DNA from: Verrucomicrobiota bacterium
GTDB taxonomy: Bacteria; Verrucomicrobiota; Verrucomicrobiia; Opitutales; Opitutaceae
Reading direction: 5' to 3'
Assembly: GCA_016235555.1 (NCBI GenBank)
Contig: JACRKC010000005.1
Span: 1 to 64,000, forward strand
DNA: 64,000 nt
A program made the translations under genes and the position numbers. This document shows, piece by piece, positions 14,460 to 60,406 of this stretch. How positions within the stretch are numbered: position 1 is the first letter of the stretch; each line of letters starts with the position of its first letter. The notes beneath the pieces are model-generated. The model worked only from the letters and a program-made list of their open reading frames with translations. It was not told the origin of the DNA and searched no databases.

Positions 14460-14640
14460 CTTGCTGAGTCTGGCGAAACAACGCGACCAAGCGTTCGGCG
14501 GTTCGGGGAGCGCACCCGTCTCGGGTGCTCGTGTCGGCGTCTCGCCGACATCTCCGAAGTCCTCGGCGGGACGCCGCGGATAGCCCGCGGGACGCGGGCG
14601 CTCCCCGAACCACCGCGTGTCACTCAATTGTCCGAACCGG
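14460..14640. repeat. Palindromic repeat family D, copy 2 (full)
   Basis: The lead-in GCTGAGTCTGGCGAAACAAC is followed by GTTCGGCGGTTCGGGGAGCG, the outer arms (GCACCCGTCTCGGGTGC and CCCGCGGGACGCGGGCGC), an inner GTCGGCGTCTCGCCGAC hairpin and the tail CGTGTCACTCAATTGTCCGA. Compare 1-138 and 41471-41606. Confidence 0.88.
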
Positions 14641-14655
14641 AGCACAGGCAGGAGC

Positions 14656-16500: not shown

Positions 16501-16524
16501 CTCCGCCAACCAGCCAACCATCAC

Positions 16525-16728
16525 TTTGGGTCAGTGGGAACACAGGGCGCCGGCGAAAGCCGGCGCCCACCCTCCCGCCAGCCGCAGCCAGCACGAAAAT
16601 TTTGGGTCAGTGGGAACACTGGGAGCGTCGGTGAAAGCCGGCGCTCCCTTCCCCGCCCGGAGCACCGAAACCAATTTGGGTCAGTGGGAACACAGGGCGC
16701 CGACGAAAGTCGGCGCCGCTTTTTTTTG
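16525..16728 (+). repeat. Family E terminator repeat, three tandem copies
   Basis: Each unit starts TTTGGGTCAGTGGGAACAC (16525, 16601, 16675; period about 75) and carries a hairpin such as GGGCGCCGGC-GAAA-GCCGGCGCC. The units are separated by unrelated spacers. A fourth copy, inverted, lies at 28505-28560 after the uspA gene. The tag plus hairpin appears to be a mobile or propagated terminator module. Confidence 0.88.
16696..16727 (+). terminator. Rho-independent terminator (third family E copy)
   Basis: Stem GGCGCCGAC with GTCGGCGCC, GAAA tetraloop, then GC and eight T. It is the only one of the three tandem copies with a strong T run and probably ends hemN transcription. Confidence 0.85.
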
Positions 16729-25856: not shown

Positions 25857-28298
25857 ATGAGCCCCGCCGTTCTCCCCGCCTCCCCGCCCACCGCGCGGGC
25901 GAAACTCACCTGCCGCCATTGCGGTGCGCCGCTCATCGACCCCCGGATGCGTGAGACCGGCTTCTGCTGCGCCGGCTGCTCCTACGTTTTTCGCCTGGTG
26001 CATGAGCACGGCCTCGCCGGCTACTACAACATCAAGGACGAAATCACCACGCCGGCCGACGCCGCGGTCTTTCAGCCCCGCGACTATGCGTGGCTCGAAG
26101 CCGCCCAGTGCGAAGTCGAAGGTGGGGTCCGCTCTCCGAGCGGGCCTGAGTGCCAGGGTCCGTTGGGTGCACCAACTCAGGCCGGCTCGGAGAGCCGGCC
26201 CTCCCACAAGATCCCCGAACTCACCCTCGACGTCCAGGGCATCTCCTGCGCCGGCTGCGTCTGGCTGATCGAACGCATCTTCCAGCAGATCCCCGGCGCC
26301 CGCGCCATCGTCGTGAATCCGCAATACGGCACCATGCGCCTGCGCTGGGTGCGCGGACAATTCTCCGCCGCCGACTTCGCCCGCAAGCTCCAGGCCTTCG
26401 GCTACCTGGCCGGGCCCGCCGGCGAAACCGTCGCGGAACCGGAGAGCCGCGGCCTCGTGAAACGCATCGGCCTCTGCGCGGCGTTCGCGATGAACATCAT
26501 GCTCTTCGCGTTCCCCGCGTATTTCGGCATGGAGCCCACGTTCGAATACGCCCGGCTCTTCAACCTCCTCACCCTCGCGTTCGGCACGCTCAGTTTCCTC
26601 GTCGGTGGCACCTATTTTCTCGGCCGCGCCGTCCGCGCCCTCCGCGAGGGCGCCATGCACATCGACCTGCCCATCGCGATCGGCATCCTCGGCGCCTACC
26701 TCGGCTCGCTCTACGGCTGGATCGCCGGCGAGGAGCGCTTCGTCTATTTCGATTTCGTCGGCACCTTCATCCTCCTGATGCTCGTCGGCCGCTGGGCCCA
26801 GGTCGCCGCGGTCGAGCGCAACCGCCGCCGCCTCCTCAGCCAGCAGCCGAAACCACAACGCGTGCGCCTCGCCACCGGCGACACCATCCCGCCCGAACAA
26901 CTCGTGGCCGGCCAGATCATGCAACTCCCCGCCGGACAGACCGTGCCGGTCGAGTCACGCCTGCTGGCTGACGAAGCCGCGTTCTCGCTCATGTCGATCA
27001 ACGGCGAATCGGAGCCGCGCATCTTCCGCGCCGGCCAGCGCGTGCCCGCCGGCGCCGTCGCCGTGAGCCGGGGCGAATGGCGGCTCGCGGCCCTCCAGCC
27101 GTGGTCGGACTCGTTGCTCGCCCAGCTTCTGCAACTCGGCGAGCGCGCCGACGAACGCCACGTCCTGCTCGAGAAAATTGTCCGCGGCTACCTCATCGGC
27201 ATCATCGCCGTCGCCGCGCTCTCCGGCGTGGGCTGGTGGCTGGCCGGCGCCGATGCCCCGCGCACCTGGGCCATTGTGACCGCCGTGCTCGTCGTCTCCT
27301 GCCCCTGCGCCATCGGTCTCGCGTTTCCGCTCGCCGACGAGATGGCCACGATCGCCCTGCGCCGCCGCGGCGTGTTCGTGCGCGATGGAAATTTGTTCAC
27401 CAAGCTCGCCCAGGTGCGGAAGCTCGTCTTCGACAAGACCGGCACGCTCACGCTGGAAACGCCCGTGCTGCAAAATCCCGAGGCCCTCCACGCCCTCGGC
27501 CCCGAAGCACGCGCCGCGCTGCTCGCCCTCGTCCAGGACAACCCCCACCCGGTGTCCCAATGTCTCCTCGAAAACCTGCTCGGCGAGGACAAGGTTTCGC
27601 CGCTGCCCGGCGCCGTCCATGAGACGATCGGCTTCGGCGTGGAGCTCGGTCCCTGGTCGCTCGGCCGCGGGGGCTGGCACGACGCTCACGGCGCGTGGAA
27701 CGAAACGGTGCTGGCCCGCGCCGGTGTCGTCCACGCGTGCTTCCGTTTCGCCGACACGGCGCGCACCGACGCCCGCGCGGAACTCGGCGCGCTCGAATCG
27801 CGCGGGTTCCAGACCTTCATCCTCAGCGGCGACAGCCGCGAGAAGGTGGTATCGCTCGCCACTTCGCTGGGGTTGCCGCCCAGCCGCGCCTTCGGCGAAT
27901 TCTCGCCCCAGGCCAAGGCCGATTGGCTCGACACGCACGCGGCTGACGACGCCCTCATGCTCGGCGACGGGGCCAACGACAGCCTCGCGTTCGATCGCGC
28001 ACTCTGCCGGGGCACGCCCGTGATTCATCGCGGCGTGCTCGAGCAAAAGGCGGACTTTTACTACCTCGGCCGCGGTATCGGCGGCCTGCGCGCCCTCTTC
28101 GACATCGATGTGATCCGGCGCCGCACGCAGGTGGCCATCCTCGTCTTCTCGGTCGTGTATAACTTGCTCGCGGTCGGTCTGGCCGTCGCCGGGCACATGA
28201 GCCCGCTCCTCGCTGCGATCCTGATGCCGATCAACTCGCTGCTCACGCTCGCGCTCGTGACCGGCGGGATGCGCCCCGCCTTCCGCCGCACCGCGTAG
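25857..28298 (+). CDS. ccoI: Copper-exporting P1B-type ATPase for cbb3 oxidase (CcoI/FixI)
   Basis: An 813-residue P-type ATPase supplying copper for the CcoN active site. In order: an N-terminal cysteine cluster (CRHCG, CCAGC at residues 19-41), a heavy-metal-associated domain with GISCAGC (about 128-134), membrane helices, the actuator loop NGESEP in place of the usual TGES, the transport motif SCPCAIGL, the phosphorylation site DKTGTLT and the hinge GDGANDS. Residues 89-117 (GGVRSPSGPECQGPL...SESRPSH) are the in-frame translation of a palindromic repeat and sit in the linker between the cysteine cluster and the HMA domain. Start ATG at 25857 overlaps nothing and follows the preceding stop by one base. 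Confidence 0.93.
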   Translation: MSPAVLPASPPTARAKLTCRHCGAPLIDPRMRETGFCCAGCSYVFRLVHEHGLAGYYNIKDEITTPADAAVFQPRDYAWLEAAQCEVEGGVRSPSGPECQGPLGAPTQAGSESRPSHKIPELTLDVQGISCAGCVWLIERIFQQIPGARAIVVNPQYGTMRLRWVRGQFSAADFARKLQAFGYLAGPAGETVAEPESRGLVKRIGLCAAFAMNIMLFAFPAYFGMEPTFEYARLFNLLTLAFGTLSFLVGGTYFLGRAVRALREGAMHIDLPIAIGILGAYLGSLYGWIAGEERFVYFDFVGTFILLMLVGRWAQVAAVERNRRRLLSQQPKPQRVRLATGDTIPPEQLVAGQIMQLPAGQTVPVESRLLADEAAFSLMSINGESEPRIFRAGQRVPAGAVAVSRGEWRLAALQPWSDSLLAQLLQLGERADERHVLLEKIVRGYLIGIIAVAALSGVGWWLAGADAPRTWAIVTAVLVVSCPCAIGLAFPLADEMATIALRRRGVFVRDGNLFTKLAQVRKLVFDKTGTLTLETPVLQNPEALHALGPEARAALLALVQDNPHPVSQCLLENLLGEDKVSPLPGAVHETIGFGVELGPWSLGRGGWHDAHGAWNETVLARAGVVHACFRFADTARTDARAELGALESRGFQTFILSGDSREKVVSLATSLGLPPSRAFGEFSPQAKADWLDTHAADDALMLGDGANDSLAFDRALCRGTPVIHRGVLEQKADFYYLGRGIGGLRALFDIDVIRRRTQVAILVFSVVYNLLAVGLAVAGHMSPLLAAILMPINSLLTLALVTGGMRPAFRRTA
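26121..26207 (+). repeat. In-frame coding palindromic repeat (family A) inside ccoI
   Basis: An 87 bp (29-codon) imperfect palindrome: left arm GTCCGCTCTCCGAGCGGGCC, right arm GGCCGGCTCGGAGAGCCGGC. It begins exactly at a codon boundary and keeps the frame. Related elements in the same reading frame occur in two other genes (43361-43464 and 45923-46005). Confidence 0.88.
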
Positions 28299-28504
28299 CG
28301 ACCGAGCAGCGGTGTTAGAGGCGGTCATCCACTTTTGTCCAAGAAGACGCACGGGCTCCGAGGTAGGACAGGTCTGTGACCTGCCCTTTCGCGCGGTGCG
28401 TGTGCGCTGGGCAGGTCACAGACCTGCCCTACTCCCAGCCGCTGCTCCGCGGAAAGTTCCTGACAGCCTCCAGGCCGGCCTCATGTCGGCCGCCACCCGC
28501 GGGT
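28299..28504. other. Spacer after ccoI
   Basis: No gene seen. It holds the family G palindrome (28361-28437) and leads into the family E terminator of the convergent uspA gene. Confidence 0.7.
28361..28437. repeat. Family G palindrome (GGTCTGTGACC type)
   Basis: GGTAGGACAGGTCTGTGACC and the complement of GGCAGGTCACAGACCTGCCC form long arms around a 20-base loop. A single arm of the same family (GGTAGGGAGGGTCTGTGACC) starts at the glnS stop codon (51724). Confidence 0.85.
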
Positions 28505-28540
28505 AAAAAACAAAAGGGCGCGGGCTTTCGCCCGCGCCCT
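28505..28540 (-). terminator. Rho-independent terminator of uspA (family E repeat)
   Basis: An 11 bp stem AGGGCGCGGGC/GCCCGCGCCCT with a GAAA loop on the minus strand, then TTTTGTTTTTT. It is preceded by the family tag TTTGGGTCAGTGGGAACGC (28541-28560), the same tag as in the tandem copies at 16525. Confidence 0.9.
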
Positions 28541-28563
28541 GCGTTCCCACTGACCCAAATTGG

Positions 28564-29022
28564 TTATTTTCTCTTCGCCGCCTTCACCTTCTGCGGTGGC
28601 ACGATCACGACGGGGCACTTCGCCCGCATCAGGACGCCGTGCGTCGTGCTGCCGACCAGCAGATCGTAGACGGCGGTGTGCCCGTGCGAGCCCATCACGA
28701 TGTAATCCGCGGCACATTTCTGGGCTTGCTCGACGATGTGGGCGACCGGCGCGCCGTTCACCTGGACGATCTCCGTCGGAATCGATTGCGCCTTCAGCCG
28801 GTCCTCGATCCTCGCGAGATTCTTGGCGGCGGCCTTCTCGCCGGCCGCCGTGATCTCCGAGAGGTTCTCCATCATCGGGGCATATTCACTGGTGATCACC
28901 GGGGGCTGGATCACGGTCAGCAGCACCACCCGGCCTTGGAAAGAACTCGCTAGCGCGGCGGCCTCCGCGACCACCGCCTCACTCACACCGCTGAAATCGA
29001 TGGGGGCGAGGACCGTTTTCAC
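28564..29022 (-). CDS. Universal stress protein (UspA family)
   Basis: A 152-residue cytoplasmic protein of the UspA family. The ATP-binding signature GSHGHTAVYDLLVGSTTHG (about residues 111-129; G-2X-G-9X-G-S/T) is intact, and the fold starts with the typical VLAPIDFSGVSEAV. It is a nucleotide-binding stress or metabolic-state protein; such genes often sit next to respiratory clusters and respond to low oxygen. It ends at a family E terminator and is divergent from the HDOD gene. Confidence 0.9.
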   Translation of the reverse strand: MKTVLAPIDFSGVSEAVVAEAAALASSFQGRVVLLTVIQPPVITSEYAPMMENLSEITAAGEKAAAKNLARIEDRLKAQSIPTEIVQVNGAPVAHIVEQAQKCAADYIVMGSHGHTAVYDLLVGSTTHGVLMRAKCPVVIVPPQKVKAAKRK

Positions 29023-41266: not shown

Positions 41267-41702
41267 GGGTGAGGCCGGCATCGTTACCAGACCACGACCG
41301 CCTTGGCCACACTCCACCTGCGCCCGGACGGCACGAGCCGGAGGCATGCGTTGAGGCTCCGAACGTTGACCCTGAATCGGGCGGCAGACCAATCGCCCGG
41401 GAATCCCTGCTCCCCTTTCCGGTGACTGGATTGGAATCAGTGTTCATCAGTGACAATCAGCGGTTCAACCGCCGGTTCCGCTGAGTCTCGCAAAAATAGG
41501 GTGACAAAGAGTTCGGCGGTTCGGGGAGCGCACCCGTCTCGGGTGCCCGCGGGACGCGGGCACTCCCCGAGCCATCGCGTGTCACTCAATCGTGCGAGCC
41601 TCAGTCGGGTGACCCCGGTGTTCCCGGCGACCGGGTAACCGCGAATCTGCCAGCGCGTGACCTCGCCCCGGGCACCGGCGCAACCGAACGGCGCCGCCAC
41701 AC
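41267..41702. other. Spacer between the operon and the sulfatase gene
   Basis: A 436 bp gap with no gene that I can support. It holds the shortened family D repeat (41471-41606) and a CCCGGTG...CACCGGG type hairpin near 41612-41640. Confidence 0.65.
41471..41606. repeat. Palindromic repeat family D, copy 3 (inner hairpin deleted)
   Basis: It has the same lead-in (GCTGAGTCTCGCAAAA), GTTCGGCGGTTCGGGGAGCG, outer arms and CGTGTCACTCAATCGTGCGA tail as the other copies. The sequence passes directly from CTCGGGTGC to CCGCGGGACGCGGGC, so the inner module of about 50 bp is absent. Confidence 0.85.
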
Positions 41703-43496
41703 CTACCGCGCCGAGACCTTCCGCGTCCCGGGCTTGTTTTTCGCCTGCTTGAGCGCGTCGGTCCAGATCGCGAGGGCGGCCTTGGCGGCCGCCAGCTTGG
41801 ACTGAGCCGCGCCCACCGCAGCCCTGGCCTCGGCTTGCTTTTTCGCCTCGGCGTCGCCGCGCGACTCAAGCGCCACAAGCGCGGCCGTCGTCTTGTCCAA
41901 CTCCTGCTGCAACGCGACGAGGCGCAGCGCGCCTTGCCTGACTCGCTCGGCGAGCGACGGCGGATTGGCGTCCAACTGGCCGGTGACTTTGCCGGTCTTT
42001 GTTTCCCAGACGTAGACTTTCCCCTGCCAGTCGCTCCCGAGCACCAGCCTCCCGTCGTCTGTGAACGTCACCCGGTTTGGCAGATCCCCGGAGAAGGCGA
42101 GCGACTGCAGGTTTCGACCGGACACATCCCAGATGACAACCTTGTTGTCGCGTCCGCTCGAAACGATGCGACCGTCGTGGGCGAAACGCGCGGCGAGAGC
42201 CCCGCCGGGATGCGCATTGACGCTGCGGAGCGCGCTGCCGTCGGCGGCCTTCCAGAGCTTGAGCGCGCCATCCTCCCCCGCGGATACGAACATCTCGGAG
42301 TCATCGCGCCAGCTGATTGCCGTGACCGCGCCGCGGTGGCCCGGCAGCGTAAACACCTCCTGGCCGGCGTCGGCGTCCCACACCACGATGCCGCCATTCC
42401 GATCGGCGGTCGCGAGGTATTTGCCGTCCGGCGAAAACTCGAGCGCGGTCACCCAGTCGGTGTGCTTTTTCAGGCGAAACTCGAGGGCGCCGCTCCTGGT
42501 GCGGTAGATTTTGACGATCTTGTCCGGCCCGCCGAGCGCGATCCACTGCTGATCCGAGCTGAGGTCGGCCGCGAGCACGGAGTCGTATTGATCGCCGATG
42601 GTGATGATGCGCTCGCCCGTGGCGACGTCCCACACGGCCGCGGCGCCGGATTTTCCGCCCCGGCCTCCACCCGCGACGAGCAACTGGCCGTTGCGACTGA
42701 ATTTCACGTCGCAGACCAGGCCCTCGGGGAACGGCAGCACCCCGGCAAACTCGAAATCGCTGGTGCGGTAAAAAACGATCTGGCGCGTCCCTGACAACGC
42801 CACAACGGGCGCCCACGGGCTGCTCGCCACCGCGCTCAAGGCCGAGCCCCGCTCACCGAGAACCACGGGCTCCAAAGCCAGTGTCGCCGGCATGACGGGC
42901 GGGCCCGCCGGCCGGCCGACCGACGCATTTTTCAACGAGAGATCGGCCGCGGGCCGGGCGGCCGCCAGCGCCTTGCTGTTTACGCCCTGGAGCAGACCGC
43001 CCTCGATCCACGCGCGGACAATGCCGACGTCGCGCTCGGAAAGTTTCGCGTTGGGCGGCATGGTGGGTTCATCCGCATGGGTGATGGACTTGAACAGCTG
43101 GCTGCCGACGGCATCGCCGGGAGTCAGGCCGGCACCGCTCCCGCCGCCCTTGAGCGCGGCTGAGAACGACGTGAGATCGAGGTCGCCCTTCAGTTTGTCG
43201 GGGTTGTGGCACTTGAGGCAGTTATCCCGGAAGATCGGAAACACGTCGTCCTCGTAGGTGACGCGTTTCGAGTCGGCGGCGGGAGCGGTGGTCGCGAGGG
43301 CGATGGCGGCGAAGGTTAATCCAAGAAATTCACCACGAGCCTTGCGAAGGCATCGAAAAAGGTCGGGACGGCTCTCCGAGCCGGCCTGGGTATGCGGCCT
43401 CGCTCGCGTTGGCGCTCTGAAATCCACGCCGGAACTCGGGACGCCGCGGAGAGGCGTCCCTACCTTCACGCGATTTCTGCTCAAGGGGATTTTCAC
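41703..43496 (-). CDS. Planctomycete-type cytochrome c domain with WD40 repeats
   Basis: A 597-residue exported protein. A planctomycete-cytochrome domain with one haem site CLKCH lies in YEDDVFPIFRDNCLKCHNPDKLKGDLD (about residues 80-106); then a seven-bladed WD40-type propeller (about 190-510) and a C-terminal coiled coil rich in alanine and lysine. Residues 12-45 (VGTPLRGVPSS...TQAGSESRPDL) are the in-frame translation of a palindromic repeat lying between the start codon and the hydrophobic signal segment (LGLTFAAIALATTAPAA). It is the last gene of the operon, three bases after the DUF1549 gene. Function unknown, possibly polymer degradation or electron transfer at the cell surface. Confidence 0.85.
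   Translation of the reverse strand: MKIPLSRNRVKVGTPLRGVPSSGVDFRAPTRARPHTQAGSESRPDLFRCLRKARGEFLGLTFAAIALATTAPAADSKRVTYEDDVFPIFRDNCLKCHNPDKLKGDLDLTSFSAALKGGGSGAGLTPGDAVGSQLFKSITHADEPTMPPNAKLSERDVGIVRAWIEGGLLQGVNSKALAAARPAADLSLKNASVGRPAGPPVMPATLALEPVVLGERGSALSAVASSPWAPVVALSGTRQIVFYRTSDFEFAGVLPFPEGLVCDVKFSRNGQLLVAGGGRGGKSGAAAVWDVATGERIITIGDQYDSVLAADLSSDQQWIALGGPDKIVKIYRTRSGALEFRLKKHTDWVTALEFSPDGKYLATADRNGGIVVWDADAGQEVFTLPGHRGAVTAISWRDDSEMFVSAGEDGALKLWKAADGSALRSVNAHPGGALAARFAHDGRIVSSGRDNKVVIWDVSGRNLQSLAFSGDLPNRVTFTDDGRLVLGSDWQGKVYVWETKTGKVTGQLDANPPSLAERVRQGALRLVALQQELDKTTAALVALESRGDAEAKKQAEARAAVGAAQSKLAAAKAALAIWTDALKQAKNKPGTRKVSAR
43361..43464 (-). repeat. In-frame coding palindromic repeat (family A) near the WD40 gene start
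   Basis: GGTAGGGACGCCTCTCCGCG and GGCCGGCTCGGAGAGCCGTC are the arms on the coding strand. It is translated as residues 12-45 in the same frame as the ccoI copy; TQAGSESRP is identical in both. A single family I end (GCATCGAAAAAGG) follows directly. Confidence 0.88.
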
Positions 43497-43499
43497 GGC

Positions 43500-46034
43500 T
43501 CAATGATTGAACACAAATTCCTTCGCGTTGAGCAGCGACCAGAAGAGGTCGTTCAACACGACTTCGTCCTTCCTCCCCTCACCGAAGAAGGACGAGAGCT
43601 GCTCGGTTTCGACGGTCGTCGGGAACCGCGCCAGCACCCGCAGATACAGTTCCTCGATGATCTCGTCCCGCGTGCGCCCCTCTTTTTGGAGCCGGCGCAC
43701 GAGTCCGCCGTTCGTGAGCTTGGCGTTCACCGCGGTGCCGTTGAGCAGATGCAGCGCCTGCGAGAGATTCGGCTCCATGCGCACCTCGCACGAGCACGGC
43801 GTCTCGCGCGTGGCGCGACCAAACGTGGTCAGGAAGTAGTTGCTCGTGCGCCCGTCGGCGATTTCGACGGCCCGGGCGCCCAGCGGGAGCCCGCGCAACT
43901 TCTCCGCATCCCCCGTGATATCGCTGAGCGCGTCGAGCAGGACCTCCGCCCGGATGCGCCGCACGCTGCTGCGGGAGAAATTTCGCTCGTCGTTGGCGTT
44001 CGTCTCGTTGGCGAGGGCCGAGGCCTGGTAGGTGCGCGAGGTGCAGATGTCGCGGATGAGCCGCCGGAAATCGTAGCGATATTCGATCAGGTGCGTGGCG
44101 AGCGCTTCGAGCAGTTCCGGATTCGAAGCCGGATTGCTCACGCGCACATCGTCCACCGGATCGACGATGCCCCGGCCGAAACACTGCGCCCAGATGATGT
44201 TCGCCAGGTTCCTGGCAAAATACCGATTGCCGGGCGCGAGCAACCAGTCCGCCAGCACCGCCCGGCGATCGGCCCCCTTGGCGATCTCGGGCTGGGCGCC
44301 ACCGAGAAACCTGGGCGCCACGTCCTTGCCGCCGACCGGATGCTTGACCCCGCCGCTGCCGCTGTTGAAGACCACGGTCTCGCGCGGATCCTCGCCGGCT
44401 TTGCGCCCCACCTGGGCGAAGAAACCCGCGAAACCATAATAGTCGTTCATCGTCCAGCGATCGAACGGGTGATTGTGACACTGCGCACACTGCAAGCGCA
44501 CACCGAGGAACGCCTGCGCGACATTCTCGGTCATCTTCAGCGTGTCGCGCTCCACCTTGTAGAAGTTTGCCGCGGGTGTGGCGAAACTCGGTCCCGTGGC
44601 GGTGAGCAGCGTGCGCACCATCTGGTCGGCCGGCACGTTGCGCGCGATCTGGTCGTCCAGCCACTCGAAGTATTGCAGCGCGGATTTTCCGCTCATCTGC
44701 AGCTGCTGGTCGGCGCTGCGAATCTGCAGCAACTCGGCCCATTTCATCACCCACACCTCGGCAAACTCCTTCCGTGCGAGCAACTCGTCCACGATCGCGG
44801 CGCGTTTGCCGGCGGACTTGTCCGCGAGGAACTTCCGCACGGCGGCCGGCGCCGGCAGCGTGCCGGTGATATCGAGGCAAACCCGGCGGAGAAACGTCGC
44901 GTCGCCGCACACGGCGGCGGGCGCGATGCGGAGTTTTCGGAGTTTGGCATCCACCAGCGCATCGACGTAGTTGTGCTGCGCGACCTGGGGCCACGTAAAC
45001 TTCAGGCCCTGCGGGATGGCGAGCACCTGCACCCCGGCGATGAGCCCCTCGAAGCGGGCCGTGATGAACGCCTCGCCGCGCGCGACCGCAGTGGCCCGGC
45101 CCAGCTCGCTGACTGCGACCGCCGCATCGTTGCTCGTCATGAACGCCGCGAGCGCCGTCACGTCCCGATCGGTGCCGTCGGCGTAGACGGCGCGGACGTT
45201 GAGTTGCTGGGTCTCACCCCTGCCCTCCAGCACGGCCTGCAGCGGATTCATTTCGAGGCGGACGACCTTCGCCGCAGCCGCGGCATCCTTGCTCGCGCCC
45301 GCCTTCAGCCAGGCGAGCAGCGTGCGATGGAATTCACTCCCGGCCTTGACGCGCTCGCCGCCCGTGTGGGGCACCCGATTGGTGGCCTTCTCGAGCACGA
45401 GGCTTTCCTCCGGCACGGTGAGATTGATGCGCCGCCCGATCACTTCGCGCGTGAGACGAAAATGGTCGCCGTCCGGATCGTAGCCGAAGAGCGAGAGGTG
45501 GAAGCCATCCTTGCCGCGCGACGACCCGTGGCAGGCGCCCGAATTGCAACCCGCCTTGGTCAGAATGGGCATCACGTCTTTCGTAAAACTGACCGGTTCG
45601 GCGACCTTGGCGCCCTCGACCTTCACCGGGACGGCCAGTGCCTTGCCCGCAAACTTCACCCGCAGCTCCGTCCGCCCGTCCGCGACCGGCACGACCACGC
45701 CGCGCTCGAGCTTCGCGATCGACCGGTGAGCAACCGTGAAGCCCGCTTTGTCCGTCACATCCCGCGTGACGCCGTCATCGTAGATCGCCTGCACGACGAG
45801 CGACTGGCGGTCCTGCGCGGTCTGGAGGTTCACGTCGGCGGGAAAAACCTTCACGTCGACGAGCGCGGGTTTGGCGAAGGCAAACGCAGGCAGAGTGAAA
45901 GCAGCGAGGAACGCGGCCCTTAGGTAGGGGCCGATCTCCGAGCGGCCCTGGGTTGATGGGTGCGCACGCTGGAACTCAGGCCCGCCCGGAGGTCGGGCCC
46001 TACCCACGGAAGAGTTGCTCACGCGCTCAGTCAT
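43500..46034 (-). CDS. DUF1549/DUF1553 (PSCyt2-PSD1) protein with haem sites
   Basis: An 844-residue exported protein. In order: an Ig-like/BIG2 domain, a cytochrome-like region with GCNSGACHGSSRGKDGF (a CX4CH site), a second BIG2-like domain, the DUF1549 domain (RVCLDITGTLPAPAAVRKFL, then LQCAQCHNHPFDRW with CXXCH), and the DUF1553 domain (NRYFARNLANIIWAQCFGRG, IRDICTSRTYQASALANETN). Residues 10-38 (VGRARPPGGPEFQRAHP...GPYL) are a translated palindromic repeat sitting before the signal-peptide core (AAFLAAFTLPAFAFA). Start ATG at 46034 overlaps the upstream stop by eight bases, so the genes are translationally coupled. Common in Planctomycetes/Verrucomicrobia; role unproven. Confidence 0.87.
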   Translation of the reverse strand: MTERVSNSSVGRARPPGGPEFQRAHPSTQGRSEIGPYLRAAFLAAFTLPAFAFAKPALVDVKVFPADVNLQTAQDRQSLVVQAIYDDGVTRDVTDKAGFTVAHRSIAKLERGVVVPVADGRTELRVKFAGKALAVPVKVEGAKVAEPVSFTKDVMPILTKAGCNSGACHGSSRGKDGFHLSLFGYDPDGDHFRLTREVIGRRINLTVPEESLVLEKATNRVPHTGGERVKAGSEFHRTLLAWLKAGASKDAAAAAKVVRLEMNPLQAVLEGRGETQQLNVRAVYADGTDRDVTALAAFMTSNDAAVAVSELGRATAVARGEAFITARFEGLIAGVQVLAIPQGLKFTWPQVAQHNYVDALVDAKLRKLRIAPAAVCGDATFLRRVCLDITGTLPAPAAVRKFLADKSAGKRAAIVDELLARKEFAEVWVMKWAELLQIRSADQQLQMSGKSALQYFEWLDDQIARNVPADQMVRTLLTATGPSFATPAANFYKVERDTLKMTENVAQAFLGVRLQCAQCHNHPFDRWTMNDYYGFAGFFAQVGRKAGEDPRETVVFNSGSGGVKHPVGGKDVAPRFLGGAQPEIAKGADRRAVLADWLLAPGNRYFARNLANIIWAQCFGRGIVDPVDDVRVSNPASNPELLEALATHLIEYRYDFRRLIRDICTSRTYQASALANETNANDERNFSRSSVRRIRAEVLLDALSDITGDAEKLRGLPLGARAVEIADGRTSNYFLTTFGRATRETPCSCEVRMEPNLSQALHLLNGTAVNAKLTNGGLVRRLQKEGRTRDEIIEELYLRVLARFPTTVETEQLSSFFGEGRKDEVVLNDLFWSLLNAKEFVFNH
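45923..46005 (-). repeat. In-frame coding palindromic repeat (family A) near the DUF1549 gene start
   Basis: GGTAGGGCCCGACCTCCGGG and AGGGCCGCTCGGAGATCGGC are the arms on the coding strand. It encodes residues 10-38 without disturbing the frame. The loop has CTGAGTTCCAGCGTG, also seen in changed form in the other two copies. Confidence 0.86.
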
Positions 46035-60265: not shown

Positions 60266-60406
60266 GGGTGTGACTCAAACTGAAGTCAGCGATTTGTAGC
60301 GGCGGTCTATGACCGCCGAACGAATGCCCTTGGCGCAACGTCGGCGGTCATAGACCGCCGCTACAGCCGAGCCATTCGAAAACTGACCTCAGTTTGAGTT
60401 GCACCC
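60266..60406. repeat. MITE-like 141 bp repeat, family C copy 2 (inverted)
   Basis: The reverse complement of this element matches 1426-1566 nearly base for base, including the asymmetric centre GCGCCAAGGGCATTCG and the length of 141 bp. The terminal inverted repeats (ACTCAAACTGAGGTCAG) are well kept. Confidence 0.92.

Follow-up and report, generated by a model that had tools for sequence, protein, structure and literature searches.

When an imperfect palindrome is found in frame within the gene for a copper pump, the question arises whether it is a segment which the protein was selected to contain, or a mobile element which the protein tolerates. Such a locus is present in a Verrucomicrobiota bacterium of the family Opitutaceae (assembly GCA_016235555.1). 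The stretch of DNA which was analysed, here called the window, comprises 64,000 nucleotides (contig JACRKC010000005.1, positions 1 to 64,000 of the forward strand). The features considered are:

25857–28298, + strand: host gene, CcoI-type copper P1B ATPase of 813 amino acids (PF12156, HMA and E1-E2 ATPase), from the open reading frame and domain matches.
26121–26207, no strand assigned: REPIN, an inverted pair of GTAG-type REP units forming CcoI residues 89–117, from the frame, the fold and a gene-finder break at 26119–26204.
26121–26156, + strand: left REP unit with tag GGTGG (a variant of GGTAG), stem-loop and CTGAG tail; 52.4 bits with covariance model R1, whose alignment includes this unit.
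26170–26205, - strand: right REP unit, inverted, with the tag variant GGGAG, stem-loop and CTGAG tail; 54.7 bits with the same model, in whose alignment it is likewise included.
43361–43464, ORF on the - strand: second copy, a pair (43361–43390 and ~43439–43463) at the N-terminus of a PSCyt1/WD40 ORF, read in the frame GTA GGG.
45923–46004, ORF on the - strand: third copy, a pair at the N-terminus of a PSCyt2/PSD1 ORF, read in the frame GGT AGG.

The gene name ccoI, given by the first-pass annotation, agrees with the domains found, and the palindrome does begin on a codon boundary, as had been claimed: base 26121 is the first of codon 89 and base 26207 the last of codon 117. The 87 bp are thus read in frame as CcoI residues 89–117, and the peptides SGPECQ and TQAGSESRP both occur in the translation. 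The insert is located between the PF12156 match and the HMA match, with 88 codons before and 696 codons after it in the same open frame and with conserved domains on both sides. As DNA it folds with -31.6 kcal/mol (z -5.25 against shuffled sequences), and a codon-usage gene finder seeded with the codons of ccoI treated 26119–26204 as a non-coding break within the gene. The tags of the two units are the variants GTGG and GGAG, not exact GTAG. In AlphaFold models, pLDDT was below 50 for CcoI residues 91–116, as it was for residues 268–279 of UvrA, which also lie within an inserted stretch (see below); this would fit disordered linkers, although low values are to be expected for any insert without aligned counterparts (33 and 30 sequences for the CcoI and UvrA models, respectively).

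With CcoI as query, matches at E ≤ 0.001 were obtained in 51 of 57 genomes, other P-type ATPases included. All comparison genomes are from genera other than that of the source. At the place of the insert the source CcoI has 38 residues, while 56 of 74 orthologue rows have 11–16 and the other 18 have 17–38 (five of the 74 rows are repeats of the same sequence). The net excess of the source protein is therefore about 24 residues; the expectation that orthologues should lack exactly these ~29 residues held as regards absence or much shorter length in the 56 rows, but not as regards the exact number. The ccoI linker of one locus (L238) holds a single unit (GTAGGTCAGGTC) of a family similar to CAGGTC-tgt-GACCTG; an inverted hairpin pair of the latter, a further family, is found at ~28362–28432, just 3' of the source ccoI, its right unit being GTAG-tagged.

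An 11-base core of the unit was found at 121 places in the 8.03-Mb genome, versus 7 for the reversed control, which is far above chance and bears out the prediction of further copies beyond the window. Within the window, with one mismatch allowed, the core shows no excess (6 places versus 3.6 expected, a number reached in 17 of 100 shuffles). The consensus of 60 aligned units is GGTAGGGCCGGCTCTCCGAGCCGGCCTGAGTT, with the layout GGTAGGG-stem-TCC-stem-CTGAGTT, i.e., a GTAG-type tag before a palindromic stem-loop in the size range of 20–40 bp. The stem is preserved, with 98.7% of cells paired and compensatory changes on both sides in five of nine pairs, and its covariation score was equalled by none of 500 shuffles. 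A search for whole elements yielded 84 places; eight with a best unit score below 20 were dropped, and the remaining 76, a subset of all genomic copies, were examined. Inverted (head-to-head) pairs make up 57 of them and single units 19. Outside confirmed gene interiors lie 59 of the 76 (some of these may be N-terminal), even though coding sequence is called over about 85% of the window. High copy number, a mostly extragenic position and inverted doublets which fold as one hairpin are thus combined here, and the anatomy of the family is that of GTAG REPs and REPINs. A covariance model of the REP unit gave matches in 24 of 57 genomes searched: at least 121 in the source genome itself, 57 in G023, 41 in G031 and 32 each in G024 and G030. 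Among the plasmids of PLSDB, no match to the element was found.

That the insert is an ordinary linker of CcoI, selected as such and palindromic by chance, is hardly credible and was rejected: the in-frame, stop-free position at a domain boundary and the 18 longer orthologue linkers would suit it, but it is contradicted by the copy number, by the prevalence of elements outside gene interiors and by the short linkers of most orthologues.

How many copies share the situation of the ccoI element was determined across the genome. The same coding frame was present on both sides of 24 elements; seven were dropped, namely five weak single matches (among the eight with low scores), L128 with a stop just upstream, and L174 with a very short frame beside a RAYT gene. 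This left 17 of the 76 in frame inside ORFs, with same-frame coding sequence on both sides and no stop. The host genes, according to family matches, are ccoI, uvrA, a UvrA-like gene, rlmD, hrpA (twice), nuoG, and genes for a Rad3-like helicase, a MutM/Fpg-type glycosylase, a DUF7133 protein, a GH43 enzyme, an AcrB-type pump, a UPF0261 protein, an SNF2 helicase, a solute-binding protein, an ABC-F-like protein and a proline/aldehyde dehydrogenase. Between two Pfam matches lie 11 of the 17 insertions (for rlmD one of the two matches is under the cut-off), five are inside or at the edge of a Pfam model, and one follows the only match. The source HrpA contains a third REPIN, of another family (GTAGGTCGGGC), at codons ~262–285 (L103:1179-3081); it resembles hairpins beside RAYT-like genes on contigs C59 and C69.

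In the consensus unit, the stops TAG (in the tag) and TGA (in the tail) both fall in one frame, and the two stop-free frames allow translation to continue through an element inserted in a gene. Of the intragenic elements, 16 have a left unit which could be scored; eight of these use one open frame and eight the other. The avoidance of the stop-bearing frame follows from the requirement for an open frame and carries no evidential weight. The earlier claim of one common frame for the family was therefore too strong. It had been made for the three copies in the window, where it applies in part: the element at 45923–46004 is read as GGT AGG, like that in ccoI, but the element at 43361–43464, of the same family, is read as GTA GGG.

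Both of these elements are situated at the extreme N-termini of their ORFs and were called non-coding by the gene finder. In both minus-strand ORFs no in-frame ATG, GTG or TTG occurs between the element and a hydrophobic, signal-peptide-like segment; judged from this absence of a start codon, both are probably translated ahead of that segment. It could be argued that the copies in the window act as RNA hairpins with a regulatory role, their reading frame being incidental. REPs are thought often to act as RNA elements, according to the accessible text of PMC3733652, and two of the three window copies adjoin gene starts. The ccoI element, by contrast, is enclosed by same-frame codons for conserved domains on both sides, and is necessarily translated if a full-length pump is made; from the open frame and these domains, we infer its translation, and an RNA role with an incidental frame appears very improbable.

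Other repeats are present in the window. At 1468–1536 and 60296–60364 another GTAG REPIN family was seen (GTAGCGGCGGTC stem), lying within a 141-bp inverted repeat (1426–1566 and 60266–60406). A repeat of ~110–170 bp occurs in three copies (1–138, 14476–14643 and 41494–41605), at least two of which have inverted repeats inside. The sequence GGGTCAGTGGGAACA occurs three times with a spacing of ~75 bp at 16522–16717, and in an inverted copy at 28507–28565, after ccoI, with a short hairpin beside each.

The genome contains ten Y1_Tnp places. One of these, at C139:44385-44615 in a frame of 145 residues, matched NF047646, the NCBI model of REP-associated tyrosine transposase, with 108.5 bits (cut-off 80). 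REP pairs of the family of the ccoI insert flank this RAYT gene, one lying ~70 bp ahead of the matched domain and the other ~160 bp behind it (L174:1906-2015 and 2476-2572), i.e., a cognate RAYT stands between REPs of its own family. Several other Y1_Tnp loci have GTAG-tagged or related hairpins, which differ in sequence; at the Y1_Tnp loci L168 and L170 the script put out no hairpin. Target-site duplications were not detected in the 57 pairs: none shares four or more flanking bases, and one shares three (0.47 expected). A MITE of the DDE type was rejected for this reason. With HUH enzymes the absence of target-site duplications is expected. The base before the tag is A in 47% of 103 distinct flanks, a weak preference. 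According to the accessible part of PMC8266576, TnpA-REP enzymes cut REP DNA in single-stranded form; the E. coli enzyme depends crucially on GTAG, while other TnpA-REP enzymes are less strict about it.

The explanation which we consider highly probable is that the ccoI insert results from RAYT-driven insertion of a REPIN, and that such insertions persist only where the linker is flexible and the frame stays open, being purged elsewhere. Two inverted GTAG-type REP units can fold, as single-stranded DNA, into one long hairpin, and a RAYT (a tyrosine transposase of the HUH type, whose gene lies at another place in the genome) would spread the REPIN from this single-stranded form; for the ccoI element this was most likely the RAYT of C139. 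The majority of insertions within genes would be lost. Those which survive would be nearly neutral and would add ~20–30 residues, mostly in linkers or surface loops, as in CcoI between the N-terminal metal-binding domain and HMA. In some of the same loops unrelated REP families would have landed independently in different genera, owing to the tolerance of these loops for inserts across the family.

The last point was examined for seven of the 16 host genes (eight of the 17 sites), and every tested gene is reported. GTAG hairpins in orthologues were detected by a simple script. At the sites occupied in the source genome lay 23 of 41, versus 30 of 150 for seven permuted tags; the 18 outside the tested sites are in many cases chance-like. 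The overall Fisher p of 1.8e-5 for the excess at the same site serves as a guide only, pairs being counted twice and related genomes not being independent. For the individual genes the hairpins at the site were:

CcoI: GTAG 5 of 12, permuted tags 4 of 59, p 0.005; four loci with a GTAG hairpin.
UvrA: GTAG 6 of 8, permuted tags 1 of 17, p 0.001; three loci.
NuoG: GTAG 3 of 4, permuted tags 6 of 21, p 0.12; two loci.
HrpA: GTAG 4 of 5, permuted tags 9 of 17, p 0.36; three loci.
SNF2: GTAG 2 of 2, permuted tags 3 of 8; two loci.
Rad3-like: GTAG 1 of 5, permuted tags 1 of 13; one locus.
RlmD: GTAG 2 of 5, permuted tags 6 of 15; two loci.

Taken gene by gene, the excess is clear for CcoI and UvrA only. 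SNF2, Rad3-like and RlmD, when pooled, showed no excess (5 of 12 versus 10 of 36, p 0.48), and some of the hairpins counted there are weak. In all seven genes at least one GTAG hairpin of another genus occurs in the same loop, and recurrence may extend to genes other than UvrA and CcoI. Outside the source genome, clear inverted pairs were found in UvrA (three genera), in NuoG (G024, of the same family as in the source) and at HrpA site 1 (G031, of another family). HrpA site 1 of other genera also has long linkers (L369, L364 and L360); that of L369 is repetitive (RPEARSQRPEARSQ), and these could perhaps be translated tandem repeats.

UvrA was surveyed in 252 genomes, 235 of them with a match; 30 loci, one from the source genome, were read as sequence, and those beyond the 30 were judged by match pattern, among the matches listed. 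The same UvrA loop is filled in three other genera as well (G017, G003 and G024), where a GTAG pair from an unrelated family follows VLAQK; in the nearest relative, G025, it is empty. On a UvrA tree built without the insert columns the four carriers require four changes, and the starred branches force three. At the CcoI site, GTAG hairpins of several families are present in 4 of 75 orthologue rows, with degraded pieces in G023; here the carrier label requires five changes on the tree, and 66 of 500 shuffles were as low. In UvrA of G002 (L213) a GTAG pair (CACAGACA stem) was seen at a different site, codons ~474–487 in query numbering; at the same numbers, model confidence is low in UvrA of the source genome.

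Such a pattern could stem from one old insertion in the ancestor of the family, whose sequence was later replaced through exchange between REP families and which was lost on many occasions. HrpA site 2, with the same family in the three genera G000, G023 and G031 (in G031 by peptide), could be one old insertion with losses, and the CcoI insert of G023 begins with a piece of the G000 family. For UvrA, however, a single clade of carriers was rejected (p-AU 0.0002), and congeners of carriers (G066 beside G017, G197 beside G003) are empty by match pattern, among the matches listed. Stem sequences within one loop, moreover, differ between genera. As a general account of the inserts which share a loop, a single ancestral insertion is therefore rather improbable.

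Recurrence might also reflect the choice of target site by the RAYT, that is, a hot spot in the DNA, and not selection for tolerated sites. The CcoI inserts of G000, G023 and L281 share their starting codon, with GAA or GAG ahead of GGT, and the enrichment of A directly before the tag would be in line with such a choice. Against it, the UvrA insertion points are spread over ~10 codons with differing host DNA around them, and neither a target motif beyond the weak preference for A nor a duplication was found in the source genome. Long non-palindromic stretches are present as well in the tested loops of other genera, and this favours structural tolerance over a DNA target. A hot spot is accordingly considered unlikely, and repeated REPIN insertion into loops which tolerate it is the preferred reading.

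To some extent these elements are known already. The first-pass annotation was aware of no description; GTAG REPs, REP dimers, their association with RAYTs and intragenic REPs were described in 2013 by Di Nocera and co-workers (PMC3733652), in whose accessible text the intragenic GTAG REPs are most numerous in Opitutus terrae. The elements reported there agree with the present ones in the GTAG tag and stem-loop, dimers, association with RAYTs, and in-frame dimers encoding 20–30 residues; the hosts given in that text include both uvrA genes, RNA helicases and DNA ligase. The present elements belong to a different genome, and their hosts also include CcoI, NuoG, RlmD and a MutM-type enzyme, the comparison being one of genomes and host genes. 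In-frame GTAG REPINs in Opitutaceae are thus known in kind. The REPINs of Bertels and Rainey (2011, PMC3116915) were defined in Pseudomonas fluorescens SBW25, from its extragenic space; as far as the accessible text goes, these share with the present elements the inverted REP doublets forming a hairpin, conserved ends, a variable spacer and the link to RAYTs, but are extragenic, whereas 17 of 76 are in frame inside genes here.

The resemblance to the palindromic elements of Rickettsia, to which the ccoI insert had been compared, extends to palindromes in frame in many unrelated proteins, as indicated by the accessible text of PMC3733652. According to the same text, the Rickettsia sequences end in CGTC, and CGTC repeats are apparently without a dedicated transposase; the present family has a GTAG tag and a RAYT of its own. 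Membership in the Rickettsia elements was rejected because of the tag, and the tie to them has to be replaced by GTAG-type REPINs. The broader proposal stands: a protein of a phylum not related to Rickettsia contains, in frame, a mobile palindromic element which has many genomic copies and is missing from most orthologues.

In the accessible text of PMC3733652, the only gene mentioned with REPs at about the same site is recB, in two Xanthomonas species; where other genes share a functional category, their REPs lie at different sites. Apart from recB, no description of recurrence in the same loop was found in the openly licensed literature searched; the part without a precedent there is the repeated occupation of one loop by unrelated REP families across genera.

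It is conceivable, though decidedly improbable, that RAYT-mobilised hairpins serve Opitutaceae as a permanent supply of new coding sequence, with unrelated REP families accepted time and again by the same loops at domain boundaries, and some inserts kept because the added linker or the strong mRNA hairpin helps, e.g., by delaying translation between two domains so that the upstream one can fold in the meantime. What the results provide is another Opitutaceae genome in which REPINs, usually called extragenic, can become protein sequence in core enzymes, with a REP family tied to one RAYT. The loops of UvrA and CcoI, occupied by unrelated REP families, are natural replicates of insertion tolerance. 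If this should prove general, a map could be obtained of where core enzymes accept 20–30 extra residues, and it could be asked whether such inserts are neutral, purged or kept.
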